In this document: piece after piece, positions 12,114-21,375 of the stretch
Layout of the letters: each line of letters starts with the position of its first letter
How positions within the stretch are numbered: position 1 is the first letter of the stretch
From: a virus
IMG/VR virus record: IMGVR_UViG_3300022929_000062
Coordinates: 1-43,351 of that record
Direction: 5' to 3' (one strand)
Length of the DNA: 43,351 nucleotides
Made by a program: the position numbers and the translations under genes
Notes under the pieces: generated by a model
The model's input: the letters and a program-made list of their open reading frames with translations, nothing else
Database searches by the model: none
What the model was told of the DNA's origin: nothing

Positions 12114-12311
12114 CTAAGTGTGATTTTGTCCTATCGGAAAGCAGTAGGGCCTAGCGTTTAACTCCAGCATGTCTAAGACATACTTTGCTACGCCTCTCAT
12201 TTCCTGTACGCATTCCTGCTTAGTGTCGTACAGGTTTTGAGTATTCATCTTAACGTCACAAGTCTTAACATCCGACATGGATCCGCAAACAAGTAATACG
12301 CCGATAAACAT
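12114..12311 (-). CDS. Small secreted/lipoprotein-like protein
   Basis: 65 residues. The N-terminus MFIGVLLVCGSMSDVKTC is short, hydrophobic and carries an LLVC lipobox-like sequence at residues 6-9, followed by several Cys (C18, C34, C57). It could be lipidated at C9 and periplasmic. The ATG overlaps the stop of the preceding 46-residue gene (TAATG). The hydrophobic part is short for a signal peptide, so export is uncertain. Confidence 0.55.
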   Translation of the reverse strand: MFIGVLLVCGSMSDVKTCDVKMNTQNLYDTKQECVQEMRGVAKYVLDMLELNARPYCFPIGQNHT

Positions 12312-12451
12312 TATTTCTTTTTCTTCGCCATGCCGCCGTAGCTGTAGCCAGGCTTTTTCTTCATAGCCATACCGCCGCCCATCATCTTAACTTTGGCAGA
12401 CTTACCCGCAGGAGGATTAGACGCACCGCACTTTGCTTTAGTCATCTTCAT
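12311..12451 (-). CDS. Tiny basic Gly/Met/Lys-rich protein
   Basis: 46 residues, starting MKMTKAKCGASNPPAGKSAK and ending in GGMAKKKK, with a central MMGGGMAMKKK. Very similar tiny proteins occur next to structural genes in many marine phages; no role is known. It overlaps the upstream 78-residue gene by 14 bases and the downstream gene by one base, so it is coupled to both. Confidence 0.68.
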   Translation of the reverse strand: MKMTKAKCGASNPPAGKSAKVKMMGGGMAMKKKPGYSYGGMAKKKK

Positions 12452-13913: not shown

Positions 13914-14536
13914 TAGCATTTTACACAATACAGGAATAATTTCCCAAAAACAGTATACTGCGTTGACGAAAACAGAACGAAAGTCCTGCAGGGGGCCTAT
14001 TATCGGGCAGGTTTACTATTGTGATTTCCCAAAAATAGGTAGGAGTTGTATACGGTACGGGTACACCCCCCACTGGCGCTCGCCCCCCTCGCATATATCC
14101 GCAAGATATATATAAATCATTGTTTTTATTGCATAAAATAATAATAAACAACGGGCTTTAACCTAAAAGTTATGGGGCCAAAGCTTCTAAAGCCCTTAAA
14201 AATAAAGCGATTGGCGCAAAAAGTATTTGCAAAAAGTATCGGGTTTTAAATTCCTGCAGAAAATAAGCGCAAGGAAAGCAAGCAAAAGGCCCGCAATCTT
14301 TTTGACGTAAATAAAAAGCAAAGGCGGGGGGCTTTGCGGTGTATCGTTTCGGCCCTGTCTTTTCGTTTTGCTTTATCGTTTGGCCCCTGTCTTTTCGCAT
14401 AGGCCCTTACAGCCAATATAAGCCCCGCTGAATAGCCCAAACCGGGTTTCCGCTGTTATCTCCTAGCCCGGCTAGGCTTTGCCTTCTCTATGGGCTTTAT
14501 ATCGCCCCCTATTGCCGCCCTTTATTATGCCCCAAA
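13914..14536. other. Non-coding stretch with direct repeats (possible replication origin)
   Basis: More than 600 bases with no credible gene; the short open frames lack ribosome sites. It holds GCAAAAAGTAT twice (14216-14226, 14229-14239) and a 24-base near-repeat TATCGTTT..GGCCC..TGTCTTTTCG at 14342-14365 and 14374-14397 (period 32). TTTCCCAAAAA also occurs twice, near 13939 and 14030. An AT-rich tract with TATATATAAATC runs from about 14105 to 14155, and a very C-rich patch sits near 14070-14095. Iteron-like repeats beside an AT-rich segment are what an origin or a packaging signal can look like. Confidence 0.4.
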
Positions 14537-14568
14537 GCAAAAGCCCCGCTAAATTAATAGCAGGGCTT
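14537..14568 (-). terminator. Intrinsic terminator of the accessory island
   Basis: On the minus strand AAGCCCTGCT, an 8-base loop and AGCGGGGCTT form a 10-bp stem with one U-G pair, followed by TTGCTTT. It lies just after the 66-residue gene and ends the leftward island transcript. Confidence 0.7.
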
Positions 14569-14594
14569 TCATCTTTTGGTTTTGGCTTGGGGGT

Positions 14595-14795
14595 TTATTC
14601 TTTTGTGATGCCGTTATTTTCCAAGATCTGCTCTACAAGATCCAAGATATTATTGAAGCGGTCTTGTGCGTCTTCGGTGTATACTTCGTCACCGTTTTCT
14701 TGCTCTTCATATATGTCGTCAAGATATGCATCATTTAGCCAAGCCCCTGCAATATCGCTGCATAATTCGAGAAAGTTTTCTGTTTTCATTTTCAT
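14595..14795 (-). CDS. Acidic hypothetical protein, last gene of the island
   Basis: 66 residues, very acidic and helical (MKMKTENFLELCSDIAGAWL; RFNNILDLVEQILENNG). It begins right after the leader GGAACCGAAACC, a variant of the repeated GGAACCGACC leader of this island. The stop precedes an intrinsic terminator. No recognised domain. Its composition and leader tie it to the other island genes. Confidence 0.6.
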   Translation of the reverse strand: MKMKTENFLELCSDIAGAWLNDAYLDDIYEEQENGDEVYTEDAQDRFNNILDLVEQILENNGITKE

Positions 14796-14807
14796 GGTTT
14801 CGGTTCC

Positions 14808-15557
14808 TTATTCTGCAGCCTGTATTTCATTAATAGCTTGGGTGAATTTTATTGCAGGCTCATTTGCTTCAAACACCGCTTGGGCAAAGCCCCTAGGCGT
14901 TGCGCTTCTTATGTTCTTAGTCTTCAAGCTTTTGCCCCCAAGCTTGCGGTGTTGTCTTGAAGCCCCGAAGCTTTCGCAATTAACAGGCAACGGGGCAGGC
15001 ATAGCAAACCCGCCCCCCGTCCAAAGACAGGTTTTCTTGCTATAGGCATCACGGGGCGGGATATGATCGGGCCATTGCGGGTGGATTGCATCTTGGTCTT
15101 GGATATAGCCCCCGAATTCATACGGGTGAAAAGTATGATCGGGCTTGCGCCACAACGTAGATAATACGCTTACGGGGTTTTCGATCATAAAGGGGCAATC
15201 AAGCTTTGCCGCAAGATCTGCAATGGCTTTGCAATGGCCTGCAGCCTTATCTTGAAAAGCGGGATCTTTTGCCCGTTTCTTTGCAAAATGCGCCGCCCCC
15301 GATACTGCAAGATCGGTGCAAGGCGGGAAGCCTAAAACTAAAGCAACCCGCCCCGTATATTCTGCAGCAATATCTTGCATTGTTTCGGGGCTGTAAAGAT
15401 CAAGCTTTGCTTTAACCATAAAGCCCCCGTTTTGATAATGTTCACAAGATGCGCCGTTGTGTTGTATATCGAAAGCAATGCCCCCATAACCTGCATTCAC
15501 CCAAGGCTGCAGCGCAACCCCTGTAAAATCATAAAGCGATAGAACAAGATCACGCAT
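14808..15557 (-). CDS. Dcm-like DNA cytosine methyltransferase family protein
   Basis: 249 residues from ATG 15557, which overlaps the previous stop by 8 bases (ATGCGTGA). The start region LVLSLYDFTGVALQPWVNAG resembles the S-adenosylmethionine-binding motif I of C5 methyltransferases (F-x-G). LVLGFPPCTDLAVSGAAHF carries the Pro-Cys of motif IV, where the catalytic Cys sits, and FMIENPVSVLS resembles motif VI (E-N-V, here E-N-P). This short form without an obvious target-recognition domain is common in phages. The usual role would be methylating phage DNA against host restriction; the activity of this short form is uncertain. Its Gly codons are biased to GGG/GGC, unlike the core genes. Confidence 0.68.
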   Translation of the reverse strand: MRDLVLSLYDFTGVALQPWVNAGYGGIAFDIQHNGASCEHYQNGGFMVKAKLDLYSPETMQDIAAEYTGRVALVLGFPPCTDLAVSGAAHFAKKRAKDPAFQDKAAGHCKAIADLAAKLDCPFMIENPVSVLSTLWRKPDHTFHPYEFGGYIQDQDAIHPQWPDHIPPRDAYSKKTCLWTGGGFAMPAPLPVNCESFGASRQHRKLGGKSLKTKNIRSATPRGFAQAVFEANEPAIKFTQAINEIQAAE

Positions 15558-15948
15558 TTTGCACCGCCTTTGCGAAAAGGCTTTTTGCATGATCAAGGCT
15601 TATTTTGTATTCCTTGCCCGTTGCTAAATCTTGTAATTCAAACGGGTATTTGCTGGCCTTGTAATTATAGCCAATAAGGGCAAAGCTTTTGCCTTGCTCT
15701 TTTGCTATCTTTGAAACGTCCAAACCATAGTGATCGGCATAAAGATCAAGGGCCTGTTGGCTTTGGCTTTTGGCCCCCTTAATTTTGATTGATAGTTTAA
15801 AATCTGCTTGATCTTGATCAAAGCGGCAATGCCCTGCAGATATGTCCAAGCCTTCTAAATGCTGCAGGCAAGGCAAGGCCCCAAGATCTTGCAACATTGC
15901 GTTTATTTCGGTGCGTAAAATTTTTACTGTTTCTTTTGTAATTTTCAT
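15550..15948 (-). CDS. Conserved phage hypothetical protein next to methyltransferase
   Basis: 132 residues, starting MKITKETVKILRTEINAMLQ. The second half has the order GLDVSKIAKEQGKSFALIGY, then NYKASKYPFELQDLATGKEY. A G.sF.l.Gy....KYPf.....G..y pattern is one I have seen in unannotated phage proteins. The fold looks like an alpha helix followed by a beta sandwich. The leader GGAACCGACCAAA stands directly before ATG. It is coupled by overlap to the Dcm-like gene, so a shared role in DNA handling is possible but unproven. Confidence 0.62.
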   Translation of the reverse strand: MKITKETVKILRTEINAMLQDLGALPCLQHLEGLDISAGHCRFDQDQADFKLSIKIKGAKSQSQQALDLYADHYGLDVSKIAKEQGKSFALIGYNYKASKYPFELQDLATGKEYKISLDHAKSLFAKAVQNA

Positions 15949-15951
15949 TTT

Positions 15952-15961
15952 GGTCGGTTCC
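15952..15961 (-). promoter_or_regulatory. Repeated leader / ribosome site GGAACCGACC (copy 1)
   Basis: Minus strand GGAACCGACC followed by AAA and the start codon of the 132-residue gene. The AAGGAA part can serve as the ribosome site, but the CCGACC part is not needed for that and is conserved among island genes. Confidence 0.55.
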
Positions 15962-15976
15962 TTTTGCTAGATAAAA

Positions 15977-16038
15977 GCTGCAAAATCTGCAGCCCAAGGC
16001 CCCCGCCAAAAGGCAGGGGCTAAAGGCTAAAGACTAAG
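15977..16038 (-). repeat. Duplicated intergenic stem-loop element, copy A
   Basis: About 60 bases nearly identical to 16983-17042. The shared core reads GCAGCCCAAGGCCCCCGC followed by GCAGGGGCTAA. In minus orientation it makes GCCCCTGCC / GGCGGGGGC and then GCTGCA / TGCAGC with a TTTTAT tail. It sits before the leader of the next gene and may be a processing site or a leaky terminator. Confidence 0.6.
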
Positions 16039-16123
16039 TGAAAAGAAACGGGGCAAATTGCAGCATGATCATTATGCCAAACAAGCAAAGCCCCCCGATA
16101 AGATCGGATATAAAGCCCCGCAT
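16034..16123 (-). CDS. Tiny membrane peptide, 29 aa
   Basis: Starts MRGFISDLIGGLCLFGIMIM and ends LQFAPFLFT, one membrane segment. The ATG overlaps the DUF932 stop by one base (TAATG), so it should be translated by coupling. Comparable tiny membrane peptides follow other genes of this island. No function is known. The tight coupling and clean hydrophobic segment are the reasons to call it a gene. Confidence 0.55.
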   Translation of the reverse strand: MRGFISDLIGGLCLFGIMIMLQFAPFLFT

Positions 16124-16953
16124 TATGCTGCAGCCTTTTCTGCGATATCCCACAAGCCTTGGTTTAATCGCACAATTTCTTTAAGGCCTGTCACCGCTCT
16201 TGCGGATCTTGTTTTTATGCCTTTTGCGTTTCGAGATATGATCGGCAGGCCTGCCCCCAAAATGCTTTCTTGGAGCCTGTTGTATACCGTCCACAAATCT
16301 TGGCTTGCGTCTTCAATCCGCTTTGGGTGGTTGGCGTGTATCATGGTAACGCTATCCCAAAAGGCCCCCGTGTCGGGGCTTCTATCTATTTGTTTCCAGC
16401 GTAAATCTAAAGCCTGCCTTGCAAGATCTTGCTGTTGCTTGATATCAAGCTTTGTTGCCTTCATTAAATCCGCATGCGCCATTGCAAGGGGCATATTTTG
16501 GGCTTGGTCTTTAACAAGCTTTTCAAAGCCTGCAGTTTGCCCCCCGTCATGCCGCAATTTGGCTTGCAGGCCTTCACCGCAAACTATGCCGTTATCACAA
16601 GCGAAACGATACAAGCCCGAAAGCAATCGCAAGCTTTGTGATGCATCGTGCGAATTCCAAAGCAATATTTCTGGTCTATGTTGCTCGTCTTCAAGATCTT
16701 GAGCAAAGGCTATCAAGTGGCTTGCGAAAGGAATGTTTGCGCTTTTGCGTGATGGTCTTTGCGCCGCATAAACGGGCTTGAAGCCATGATCTTGCAGTAT
16801 TTCAACGGCCTGCATTGTATCAACAAAATCATAATTTTTTGACGTTTTAGGGGCAGGGCTTGGGGTAAATGCTGCAGGGCATTTATCGAAAAGATCCGCT
16901 TGCGTAAGCATTGTGCGGGGGGTTTTGTCAGTTATCATAAGATCATAAGGCAT
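16123..16953 (-). CDS. DUF932 / phage-plasmid-like protein
   Basis: 276 residues. The block RPEILLWNSHDASQSLRLLS followed by GLYRFACDNGIVCGEGLQAK matches the DUF932 signature R.Pei...NSHDGs.a..l..GlfR.vC.NGlv. The family is common in phages, plasmids and mobile islands; its role has not been established. The leader GGAACCGACCAAA precedes ATG 16953. It is followed by the coupled 29-residue membrane peptide. Codon use is like the other island genes (many GCC, GGC and AAG/CTT pairs). Confidence 0.72.
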   Translation of the reverse strand: MPYDLMITDKTPRTMLTQADLFDKCPAAFTPSPAPKTSKNYDFVDTMQAVEILQDHGFKPVYAAQRPSRKSANIPFASHLIAFAQDLEDEQHRPEILLWNSHDASQSLRLLSGLYRFACDNGIVCGEGLQAKLRHDGGQTAGFEKLVKDQAQNMPLAMAHADLMKATKLDIKQQQDLARQALDLRWKQIDRSPDTGAFWDSVTMIHANHPKRIEDASQDLWTVYNRLQESILGAGLPIISRNAKGIKTRSARAVTGLKEIVRLNQGLWDIAEKAAA

Positions 16954-16956
16954 TTT

Positions 16957-16966
16957 GGTCGGTTCC
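16957..16966 (-). promoter_or_regulatory. Repeated leader GGAACCGACC (copy 2)
   Basis: Minus strand copy directly before the DUF932 start, with AAA between it and ATG and an A/T-rich tract upstream. Same layout as at 15952-15961. Confidence 0.55.
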
Positions 16967-16982
16967 TTTTTTTAGGTTTATT

Positions 16983-17042
16983 GCTGCAAGATTGCAGCCC
17001 AAGGCCCCCGCAATTTGCAGGGGCTAAGGGCTAAAATCTTAG
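16983..17042 (-). repeat. Duplicated intergenic stem-loop element, copy B
   Basis: Second copy of the element at 15977-16038, with matching GCAGCCCAAGGCCCCCGC and GCAGGGGCTAA parts. It overlaps the last codons of the 73-residue gene and lies just before the DUF932 leader, the same relative place as copy A. Confidence 0.6.
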
Positions 17043-17260
17043 GGATTAATTTTGCGGTTTATTTCTGCCATAAATGCAGCATGTTTTGCATCATCCGCAG
17101 CCCGTCTTGCTGCATATTTTGCAGAAATTGCATCAAGCTTTTTGCGGTCTGCTCTATCTTGCAAGGCAGTAATTACTGCAGCAATTGCCCAAGATACGAA
17201 AACAGCAACAGCAAAAAAGGCGGTCATAAAAAGCGGGCTTGTTAGCGTTTCAATTGTCAT
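17039..17260 (-). CDS. Small membrane protein with charged tail
   Basis: 73 residues. One membrane segment near the N-terminus (LFMTAFFAVAVFVSWAIAAV) is followed by a charged helix (DRADRKKLDAISAKYAARRA). The start overlaps the stop of the 55-residue gene by one base (TAATG). A single-span inner-membrane protein with a cytoplasmic coil is the likely layout. No known family. Confidence 0.58.
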   Translation of the reverse strand: MTIETLTSPLFMTAFFAVAVFVSWAIAAVITALQDRADRKKLDAISAKYAARRAADDAKHAAFMAEINRKINP

Positions 17261-17427
17261 TAAACCGCCCCCGCTTTTTTTACTTCAAACACAAGACAGT
17301 CGCTTTCATGCAATCCCCAAACATTGCGCCATGTTTTAACTGCTAAAGAAGCGGATTTTTTGCGGGTGAAATTTTGCTCAAAAAAATCACCGTTTTCTTC
17401 TAAGCGCCAAATAATTGTAAATTTCAT
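17260..17427 (-). CDS. Hypothetical protein, 55 aa
   Basis: Starts MKFTIIWRLEENGDFFEQNF and continues with TRKKSASLAVKTWRNVWG, an alpha/beta-looking small domain with several aromatic residues. The leader GGAACCGACC lies four bases before ATG. The stop TAA shares a base with the next ATG. The leader and coupling support a real gene although no family is recognised. Confidence 0.6.
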   Translation of the reverse strand: MKFTIIWRLEENGDFFEQNFTRKKSASLAVKTWRNVWGLHESDCLVFEVKKAGAV

Positions 17428-17431
17428 TTTT

Positions 17432-17441
17432 GGTCGGTTCC
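17432..17441 (-). promoter_or_regulatory. Repeated leader GGAACCGACC (copy 3)
   Basis: Minus strand copy before the 55-residue gene. A GGGCAAA / TTTGCCC stem-loop (17460-17476) stands upstream of it, between this gene and the tiny peptide gene. Confidence 0.5.
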
Positions 17442-17528
17442 TTTTGTCTAAAAGTTAAGGGGCAAAGCTTTTGCCCTGCCCCTTGTTATTTCATTTTCAC
17501 AATTTAGTAAAGGCCCTTTATTAATCTT

Positions 17529-17597
17529 TCAAAATAAAAGATCTAAAGCCCATAACCAAAAGACAATAAAGCCCAAGGCAGTATAAAAGATTTTCAT
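17529..17597 (-). CDS. Tiny membrane peptide, 22 aa
   Basis: Starts MKIFYTALGFIVFWLWALDL and ends LF; the whole peptide is one membrane segment. ATG lies 8 bases after the GP88-like stop, with TAGGGGCGCT as ribosome site. It mirrors the 29-residue peptide after the DUF932 gene. Very short, so confidence is limited. Confidence 0.42.
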   Translation of the reverse strand: MKIFYTALGFIVFWLWALDLLF

Positions 17598-17604
17598 AGC
17601 GCCC

Positions 17605-18324
17605 CTATTCTGCAGCGATTGCAAAAGGGGCAGGGCTTGCTTGGCTTGGTTCTACAATAAACAGGCTTTTGCTTTTCTTGGCTTCATTGCCTTTAAGCTT
17701 TAGCCCGATAATTTTGCCCTGTTGCTTTTGGTTTTTGATATCGGACAAATCACCGTCTACAATTTCCCGCCCCAAGAAATAAGAACCGACAGGCACAAAG
17801 CCCCGAAAGACTACAGCAACGGGCCTGTCAGTTAACAAAGCCCGCTTCACTTGCTTTTGATAGGCGGGGTTTTGAGAATATGAAAAGATTAAATCATAAT
17901 TTGGCGGGGTTCTATCAAGCCTTGCCGCAACCTTTGTATAATCTAAAAAATACGATTGCGGGAATTCTTGCGGGATCCCGTATTTTGTCCAATCAATATC
18001 GCTTATTGTGTTTAAACGATAAGCGGGCTTTTCGTCGTTCTTTTTGCAAAGCTTTTCGAAATTAAAAATTTCATGCTTTACTTGATCAACAAAACCGTTG
18101 GGATCTTTCATAAAGAATTCTGTTTTTAATTGCCGCCCCGTTTTTACATTATCAAAGATGCCAAATCCCGCATCTTTAAGACAAGGCTTCATGCAATCGG
18201 CAAGCTTTGCCCCGCTACATATAAAATCATTGGGATATAAAGACAGGCTTGCAATCCGCAACCCGCTTTCTTTTTGGCTCTTTCTCACTTTTGTATTGCT
18301 TGCGCTTGTGTCTAAAAGTTTCAT
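17605..18324 (-). CDS. GP88-like (gene 88 protein) family protein
   Basis: 239 residues, starting MKLLDTSASNTKVRKSQKES. Blocks I associate with the GP88 family are RIASLSLYPNDFICSGAKLA with nearby Cys, CMKPCLKDAGFGIFDNVKTG, RLNTISDIDWTKYGIPQEFP, and EIVDGDLSDIKNQKQQGKII followed by GLKLKG. The family is widespread in phages and unexplained; the early Cys group (C36, C43, C48) may hold a metal. It is the first gene of the accessory island. Its start is preceded by GGAAAACCAAGAA, a degenerate form of the island leader. Confidence 0.6.
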   Translation of the reverse strand: MKLLDTSASNTKVRKSQKESGLRIASLSLYPNDFICSGAKLADCMKPCLKDAGFGIFDNVKTGRQLKTEFFMKDPNGFVDQVKHEIFNFEKLCKKNDEKPAYRLNTISDIDWTKYGIPQEFPQSYFLDYTKVAARLDRTPPNYDLIFSYSQNPAYQKQVKRALLTDRPVAVVFRGFVPVGSYFLGREIVDGDLSDIKNQKQQGKIIGLKLKGNEAKKSKSLFIVEPSQASPAPFAIAAE

Positions 18325-18571
18325 TTCTTGGTTTTCCTTTTCGTTTTAGATTTTTGCAGATCTTGGGGTTTTGTCTTTTGGGTTGGTTAAGCCCGCCCCT
18401 TGATCTGCCACCCAATAGAAACGAAAAAAGCCAAGCAATCAAGCGCAAATTTGCACAAATAAAAAGCACATAAAAAAGAATTTATTATGCCCGCCTGGAT
18501 GCGCTTATTAGTTGTTGATTTAAGGGATACGATATCATAAAGATACCTGGTGTTTTAGGTATAGGTATATC
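18325..18571. other. Divergent non-coding region before the accessory island
   Basis: About 250 bases with no gene. On the minus strand TTGATT, 17 bases, TCTATT (about 18400-18445) could be the island promoter. Nearer 18530-18570 a repeat of GATACC / GGTATA type (GATACCTGG and AGGTATAGGTATATC) looks like an operator. Rightward from here the 58-residue gene starts. Confidence 0.35.
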
Positions 18572-18585
18572 TTGACGCCAGAGTA
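18572..18585 (+). repeat. Direct repeat TTGACGCCAGAGTA, left copy
   Basis: Fourteen bases identical to 18812-18825. This copy ends 43 bases before the start of the 58-residue gene and contains a -35-like TTGACG. The pair brackets that gene. Confidence 0.55.
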
Positions 18586-18628
18586 AAATTAGAACAGAGT
18601 GAGAACATTCAAAAAATCGGAGAATCGT

Positions 18629-18805
18629 ATGATACTAAGCCAGGCGCAAGCTAGGGAGTTGGGAGAGGCGTTGTTGGATGCCTCAGAAGACACTAAAACC
18701 GACAACAGCCAAGCAATAGTAATTTTGGACGGCTCTGCCGTTGCCGTACCTTTTAACGAAGATCTACAAGACCTATATGAAACACCCATTATTGTTCAGG
18801 TATAA
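18629..18805 (+). CDS. Hypothetical protein, 58 aa, between direct repeats
   Basis: Starts MILSQAQARELGEALLDASE at ATG 18629 with GGAG seven bases before it; a longer reading from an upstream alternative start lacks support. A helix of about 20 residues is followed by DNSQAIVILDGSAVAVPFNE, a small alpha/beta layout. It has no clear helix-turn-helix, so I cannot call it a repressor. It has its own strong terminator and is framed by two identical 14-base repeats, so it is an independent unit between the island and the integrase. Confidence 0.58.
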   Translation: MILSQAQARELGEALLDASEDTKTDNSQAIVILDGSAVAVPFNEDLQDLYETPIIVQV

Positions 18806-18811
18806 ACACGT

Positions 18812-18825
18812 TTGACGCCAGAGTA
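18812..18825 (+). repeat. Direct repeat TTGACGCCAGAGTA, right copy
   Basis: Second copy of the 14-base repeat, six bases after the stop of the 58-residue gene and just before its terminator. Confidence 0.55.
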
Positions 18826-21260: not shown

Positions 21261-21375
21261 TATTAACCTATTGTTTTTATTGGCTTTGGTTGCGGGAGTA
21301 GGATTTGAACCTACGACCTTCAGGTTATGAGACTATTCAATGAAAACAATGGGTTATAGACGCCAAAGGTTAATA
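21261..21375. other. attP region with inverted arm repeats
   Basis: TATTAACCT (21261-21269) and its inverted copy AGGTTAATA (21367-21375) flank the tRNA-like core, with related GGG-TATTAACCT and GGGCCTATTAACCT contexts. Paired arm sites around a core are usual for tyrosine integrases. The interval lies between ThyX and the next operon and contains no gene. Confidence 0.5.
21287..21332 (-). other. attP: attP core: 3' half of an initiator tRNA-Met gene
   Basis: On the minus strand the sequence runs from the anticodon loop CTCATAA (CAU anticodon) through the 3' anticodon stem CCTGA, variable AGGTC, T stem-loop GTAGG-TTCAAAT-CCTAC, acceptor TCCCGCA, A and CCA. The 5' half of a tRNA is absent: matching stops just after the anticodon loop. 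A truncated tRNA copy ending in CCA next to an integrase is the standard form of a phage attachment site that restores the host tRNA gene on insertion. Confidence 0.85.

Follow-up and report, generated by a model that had tools for sequence, protein, structure and literature searches.

Does DNA of unusual composition inside a phage genome mark a recently acquired block? This question is raised by positions 14537–18571 of a 43,351-nucleotide (nt) IMG/VR virus record (IMGVR_UViG_3300022929_000062; the whole stretch is called the window below, and its sequence outside this island is called the core). In a preliminary description the island was considered an accessory module with its own codon use and leader, possibly acquired as one block. 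The results presented here favour another explanation: the island is probably an accessory operon, conserved and read leftward, of HMO-2011-type phages that bear an integrase. It looks like a plug-in slot kept over a long time and not like a recent foreign insert, and many of its genes share a short sequence at their starts (the leader, or start tag).

Composition of the island

The composition step expected near 14.5 and 18.5 kilobases (kb) is present and extreme. The dinucleotide distance of the island to the core is 249, whereas eight core chunks of equal size give 27–51; guanine–cytosine (GC) content is hardly altered across the island. Word use shifts abruptly at ~14.07 and ~18.48 kb (in 250-nt steps the onset is seen at ~14.1 kb and the end at ~18.5 kb). 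The left border lies at a conserved 24-nt element at ~14.07 kb instead of 14.54 kb, which makes the island wider on that side than first described. The borders are formed by the following features.

14048–14071, plus strand: conserved element GTATACGGTACGGGTAYACCCCCC, left composition border, found exactly in 24 IMG/VR stretches
14075–14540, no strand assigned: non-coding stretch with the strongest signature (2.73, against 0.44 ± 0.34 with a maximum of 1.59 in core windows of the same length)
18480–18600, no strand assigned: right composition border and divergent start region (GP88 leftward, 18599–18805 rightward)

Wherever both sides are readable, the signature starts to the right of GTATACGGTACGGGTAYACCCCCC, with L122 as the sole exception. 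Next to the right border, TTGACGCCAGAGTA is present at 18572–18585 and again at 18812–18825, flanking a gene for 68 amino acids (aa), and is absent from the other loci checked.

Within 14537–18571, GTAC is missing (3.4 per kb elsewhere in the window), as are GAGT/ACTC and GAGG/CCTC, and CTGA/TCAG occurs twice on both strands together, compared with 394 occurrences in the rest of the window. GGGG, TTGC, CTTG and GCTT are enriched 2.5–4-fold. Among the dinucleotides, AC/GT (0.51; core 0.88) and GA/TC (0.66) are lowered, and GC (1.83) and AA/TT (1.53) are raised. The preferences named in the preliminary description were reproduced, both for codons (Gly GGG 0.40 vs. 0.14 and GGC 0.44 vs. 0.28, Pro CCC 0.34 vs. 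0.14 in island and core, respectively) and for strings (AAGCTT 3.47 vs. 0.36, CTGCAG 2.97 vs. 0.52 and GATC 7.7 vs. 5.1 per kb).

These codon preferences are real but are a consequence of a bias in the DNA. In four pooled islands GAG and CTC are reduced to 0.20 and 0.21 of the core level, and GGAG and CTCC to 0.03 and 0.05. The autocorrelation of strong and weak bases at lag 1 is 0.226 in the island and 0.010 in the core, with nothing comparable at longer lags and no codon periodicity; bases in runs of at least four are threefold more frequent in the island. Since the bias is strand-symmetric, involves nearest neighbours only and is strongest in the non-coding stretch 14075–14540, it is a property of the DNA acting on both strands and on neighbouring bases, not a codon preference.

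The same slot in related phages

The window phage, a marine Roseobacter-type phage in which the HMO-2011 gene order and terminase and portal homologs are present, can be assigned to the presumably temperate, integrase-bearing HMO-2011-type phages as kin of roseophages CRP-235 and CRP-3, on the evidence of gene order and terminase, portal and integrase homology (terminase identity with CRP-235, 72%). CRP-235 and CRP-3 are classed as HMO-2011-type phages in PMC9038755. These two phages (PMC9038755, PMC6918029) and the window phage have in common the gene order, a related integrase, a tRNA-Met attachment site (attP; putative in the window) and the accessory slot. In the searched passages of the two papers neither the leader nor an island of deviant composition is mentioned.

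The comparison covered seventy loci whose integrase is related. The slot is the stretch from a conserved 106-aa gene on the late-gene side to the integrase; among the loci that reach far enough, it contains GP88 in most and DUF932 in many. No empty slot with joined flanks was found: every inspected relative with both flanks has slot genes. The signature score of the slot is raised in those relatives that reach far enough, even at 45–56% integrase identity; in CRP-3 the signature is present in weak form. In 13 lineages, which are not fully independent and for which the island bounds were chosen by the analyst, the island-minus-core vectors have a mean cosine of 0.72 (random core segments, 0.005) and a size of 0.53–1.21 (random core segments, mean 0.19). 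The GC content of these islands varies from 32 to 57%, above or below that of the core, and the direction of the dinucleotide deviation is constant.

For each phage, the GP88 gene was also set against 300 versions obtained by codon shuffling, a null that controls for both protein sequence and codon use. GP88 DNA lies above its own null mean in 22 of 22 phages (z 0.9–9.9, in 21 of them above 2.5), and the integrase shows no deviation in any phage of this comparison. GP88 DNA is deviant within each phage even where the proteins are only ~50% identical. A GP88 segment of CRP-6, a roseophage of an unrelated group (L108, 42600–44900), deviates similarly, with a size of 0.90 and a cosine of 0.72 to the window island.

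A one-off acquired block is rejected because the same slot deviates across relatives and GP88 is deviant in all 22 phages. In the relatives the slot has identical neighbours, a similar signature and partly different genes, and none of the sampled alphaproteobacterial genome pieces matches the signature; acquisition as a single unit is not supported. The slot is not empty in any of the inspected relatives with both flanks, and single genes inside it are swapped. The sequences thus lead to the conclusion that the position, rather than a single insertion event, carries the signature.

Leader and gene exchange

The leader attributed to the block exists: AAAAGGAACCGACCAAAATG stands exactly before three window genes and in degenerate form before two more. 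Only a few nt separate it from the start codon, and it spans the ribosome-binding site. The leaders and the hairpins upstream of them are as follows.

15949–15965, minus strand: start-associated leader AAAAGGAACCGACCAAA, repeated motif
15966–16040, minus strand: hairpin unit 5' of this leader (z −3.1), paralog of 16971–17045
16954–16970, minus strand: start-associated leader of DUF932, repeated motif
16971–17045, minus strand: hairpin unit 5' of the DUF932 leader (z −3.8)
17428–17445, minus strand: start-associated leader, followed by a different, unrelated gene in each of five phages (the window phage and four relatives)
17457–17484, minus strand: hairpin 5' of the leader at 17428–17445 (z −3.0)

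Two of these three hairpins are paralogous 75-nt units, which can be aligned and share a consensus fold with one compensatory pair change; the third is of a different kind. Lineage-specific versions of the leader keep GACC (CRP-235, GGAAATGACCAAATG; L048, GGAAACTGACCAAATG; L046, GGAACTGACCAAATG; CRP-3, GGAGACTGACCAATG), and all versions outside the window end in GACC(A)nATG. In 13 loci the motif precedes 31 of 86 slot open reading frames (ORFs) and none of the 503 others; the ORFs were called mechanically in related genomes, which makes any p-value merely indicative. If one bulge is allowed, pairing with the commonly given 16S rRNA tail can be lengthened by the GACCAA half, and duplexes are formed by all leader versions. 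Because this pairing is equalled by 1–22% of shuffles of the 3' part, its statistics are weak and it is retained merely as a lead.

Slot genes are gained and lost singly, in clear cases exactly at the leader–ATG junction. In five phages, namely the window phage and four close relatives, one ~95-nt leader is followed by five unrelated genes, exactly from the ATG. The relative L031 lacks the 55-aa gene (17261–17427), and there the leader joins the next ATG; it also lacks the 66-aa gene (14602–14807), and similarity breaks at 14601/14808. Such breakpoints match the expectation for swapping of whole reading frames and suggest a recombination route of this kind. The window GP88 is only 79% identical to the GP88 of phages whose integrase is 97–99% identical, and exchange inside the slot is therefore indicated.

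Proposed explanation and alternatives

In the slot, GP88 is usually the first gene, often with DUF932 behind it, and the other small genes vary. According to the proposed scheme, the operon would be read early; in Lo5R7ANS and CRP-143, GP88 lies in the early region ahead of the RNA polymerase gene. The slot products would probably be host-takeover or counter-defence factors, directed at the host or at its defences, and the anti-restriction or host take-over role suggested for the cargo earlier is still a reasonable guess. In the leader, AAGGA would be the ribosome-binding part, and the conserved GACCAA part could add to start selection through extra 16S pairing or binding of a factor. Repeated leaders could supply short homology allowing whole reading frames to be swapped, so that the start tag would double as a mark of the swap point. 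The signature could be held by a DNA-level force in the slot, either selection or a mutation process of regional reach, and by exchange between the phages sharing the slot.

A more specific version of this scheme, in which a process limited to the slot keeps its DNA at an extreme strand-symmetric nearest-neighbour composition regardless of genes and GC content, in combination with reading-frame exchange guided by the start tag, is put forward tentatively and is rather doubtful. If true, phages would have a regional code of composition, or a process of targeted mutation, that is so far undescribed in them.

Several observations weigh against the reading of the block as a conserved slot. L122 has the border element GTATACGGTACGGGTAYACCCCCC without the signature, the GP88 of L037 reaches just z 0.9, and the early regions of HMO-2011 and CRP-143 are without the signature. 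The deepest lineages (L069, L075 and L089) have no GACC leader. Outside the 13 loci, copies of the leader also precede some rightward genes that lie beyond the integrase (relatives L034, L036, L038, L039, L084 and L088) and possibly represent a second accessory site; since these copies lie in DNA of mostly core-like composition, leader and signature are separable. Searches with the GP88 and DUF932 models gave no significant match to a solved structure, and the assignment of the operon to the early genes, drawn from gene order and homologs, is itself an inferred one.

A single foreign block taken up recently, from a donor having this signature, would agree with the sharp step, with genes that are typical mobile cargo and with the low identity of the window GP88 relative to the integrase. 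This explanation is very unlikely and already largely refuted: the slots of relatives with flanks are filled and deviate in the same direction with different genes and GC content, and the distances for GP88 correlate with those for the integrase (Mantel r 0.79, 0 of 5000 permutations). No donor was found among 20 alphaproteobacterial pieces, some with the exact tRNA-Met site (signature score at most 1.4 over the whole length), among plasmids (nothing beyond an 84-nt methyltransferase match) or among 84,980 genomes (three distant GP88 matches). Alternatively, the slot could draw on a gene pool of its own, exchanged almost only among slot users, and the signature could be inherited from an old common source and not maintained by any process. 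The cassette swaps among relatives and the similar deviation of the CRP-6 segment speak for such a pool, but divergence to ~50% protein identity should wipe out an inherited bias, and the signature is strongest outside genes, at 14075–14540; this explanation is considered unlikely.

Selection at the level of codons or mRNA (host-adapted codons, avoidance of endoribonuclease sites) would explain a codon use clearly unlike that of the core. It is disfavoured as highly improbable by the equal depletion of GAG and CTC, and of GGAG and CTCC, on the two strands, and by a lag-1 effect that lacks codon periodicity and is strongest outside genes. The absence of GTAC from the window block could also suggest restriction-site avoidance limited to the DNA entering first, but in five pooled islands GTAC, CTAG and most palindromes are near the expectation based on trinucleotides, CTGCAG is enriched, AAGCTT and GATC are not depleted, and the avoidance of CGCG and GGGCCC is genome-wide and not specific to the island, which leaves this explanation scarcely credible. 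The conserved accessory slot is thus the reading retained here.

Unusual composition is routinely taken as a sign of recent foreign DNA. That reasoning fails in the slot because composition here belongs, as a conserved trait, to a position in the genome whose genes change. The slot is a testable case for the forces that hold regional signatures in phages. In this group of marine phages, which is abundant, the leader could serve as a handle for finding accessory or counter-defence genes.

Relation to known systems

The leader resembles the start-associated sequence (SAS) and extended start-associated sequence (ESAS) of cluster K mycobacteriophages (PMC3203893). Both are short, conserved and non-palindromic, occupy the ribosome-binding position in one orientation and precede unrelated non-structural genes; in both, conservation extends past the Shine–Dalgarno core and an inverted repeat is found just upstream of some copies. 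The leader also resembles a motif of cluster EF Microbacterium phages (PMC7302621). The consensus is different: the leader has the form AAAAGGAA-n-GACCAAATG, while the known start-associated sequences are GGGATAGGAGCCC or GGGAAAGGACCCC, and the window copies (AAAAGGAACCGACCAAAATG) do not match the 13-nt cluster K consensus GGGATAGGAGCCC. Unlike the cluster K SAS, the leader belongs to phages of alphaproteobacterial hosts and is mostly located inside one composition island. The extended part in cluster K is a 17-nt inverted repeat, with a SigA-like promoter in Adephagia (PMC3203893), whereas the window hairpins have another sequence and no recognised promoter (a promoter consensus scan gave 10 hits, compared with 10.0 in shuffles). 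The function of SAS and ESAS in cluster K is still called unproven (PMC11373665, PMC12699233). By analogy, the leader would work like the cluster K sequences without being homologous to them by consensus, and it would add a further, seemingly unrelated example of such sequences.

The insertion of single genes amid otherwise constant genes is also reminiscent of cassette mosaicism and morons in phages. In contrast to these, the swap points coincide here with a leader that the genes share, and one DNA signature covers the slot as a whole. A limited literature search found no counterpart of a signature fixed to a position.

Slot genes and structural elements

As described earlier, the island is filled with accessory genes and adjoins the integrase, every gene retained from 14595 to 18324 lies on the minus strand, and the three expected families, GP88-like (PF17338), DUF932 (PF06067) and Dcm-like (phrog_757), are found. 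Of the single terminator, the strong closing hairpin was recovered, but further terminator-like hairpins exist inside the unit.

14540–14569, minus strand: hairpin with a T-rich tail that closes the leftward unit (fold −31.1 kcal/mol, z −5.2)
14595–14795, minus strand: 66-aa protein, optional cassette, with a degenerate leader at 14796–14807; missing in L031
14808–15557, minus strand: predicted Dcm-like DNA methyltransferase, 249 aa (phrog_757, 1.6e-72; PPC and EN motifs visible)
15550–15948, minus strand: 132-aa protein, kept in close relatives
16034–16153, minus strand: ORF of 39 aa (29 aa when counted from the ATG) for a hydrophobic peptide, kept by relatives
16123–16953, minus strand: DUF932 protein (PF06067, 3.5e-24; phrog_12094, 2.6e-38)
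17039–17260, minus strand: ORF for a 73-aa protein with a hydrophobic N-terminal segment, 96% identity in relatives
17260–17427, minus strand: 55-aa protein, swappable cassette (17261–17427 precisely missing in L031)
17529–17624, minus strand: ORF of 31 aa (22 aa when counted from the ATG) for a hydrophobic peptide, kept by relatives
17605–18324, minus strand: GP88 protein, usual first slot gene (PF17338, 7e-25; DNA signature z 7.5 over the codon null)

Both the family score and the C5-methyltransferase motifs identify the product of 14808–15557 as a Dcm-like DNA methyltransferase, which has homologs in 1520 phage records. Family searches of the window proteins gave no match for the 66-aa and 132-aa proteins. 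GP88 has invariant cysteines at positions 36, 44 and 48, matched in 15 of 15 aligned members, and its AlphaFold2 model is barrel-like (predicted local distance difference test score, 87). A radical S-adenosylmethionine-like enzyme was considered and is not supported, the window protein having CX7CX3C and not CX3CX2C and the barrel-like model having no significant PDB match. Searches for RNA families gave sub-threshold matches only; the best one, ctRNA_pGA1 (25.9 of the 45 bits needed), was rejected, and this similarity, located at 14494–14583 within the non-coding terminal part of the island, is probably due to chance.

Integration site and other observations

A putative attP at 21282–21328 consists of the 3' part of tRNA-Met(CAT), including CCA, and fits the mapped integration site of CRP-3, which is the 3' end of tRNA-Met(CAT) according to PMC6918029. 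In CRP-3, the tRNA-Met segment sits between the two phage-side primers given in that paper. At least 39 nt of the segment are identical in most of ~85 related loci. The attP was ruled out as the border of the island, since the segment lies at 21.28 kb, downstream of the integrase and ThyX.

In the whole window, CGCG is absent (~70 expected), CCGG occurs 9 times (~88 expected), and GGGCCC and CCCGGG are both missing. CRP-235 shows the same pattern; CRP-3 lacks CGCG and GGGCCC but has 192 CCGG. This genome-wide pattern looks like restriction-site avoidance. At 12311–12451, the small late-side genes include one for a 46-aa peptide (MKMTKAKCGASNPPAGKSAKVKMMGGGMAMKKKPGYSYGGMAKKKK) with many Lys, Met and Gly residues.

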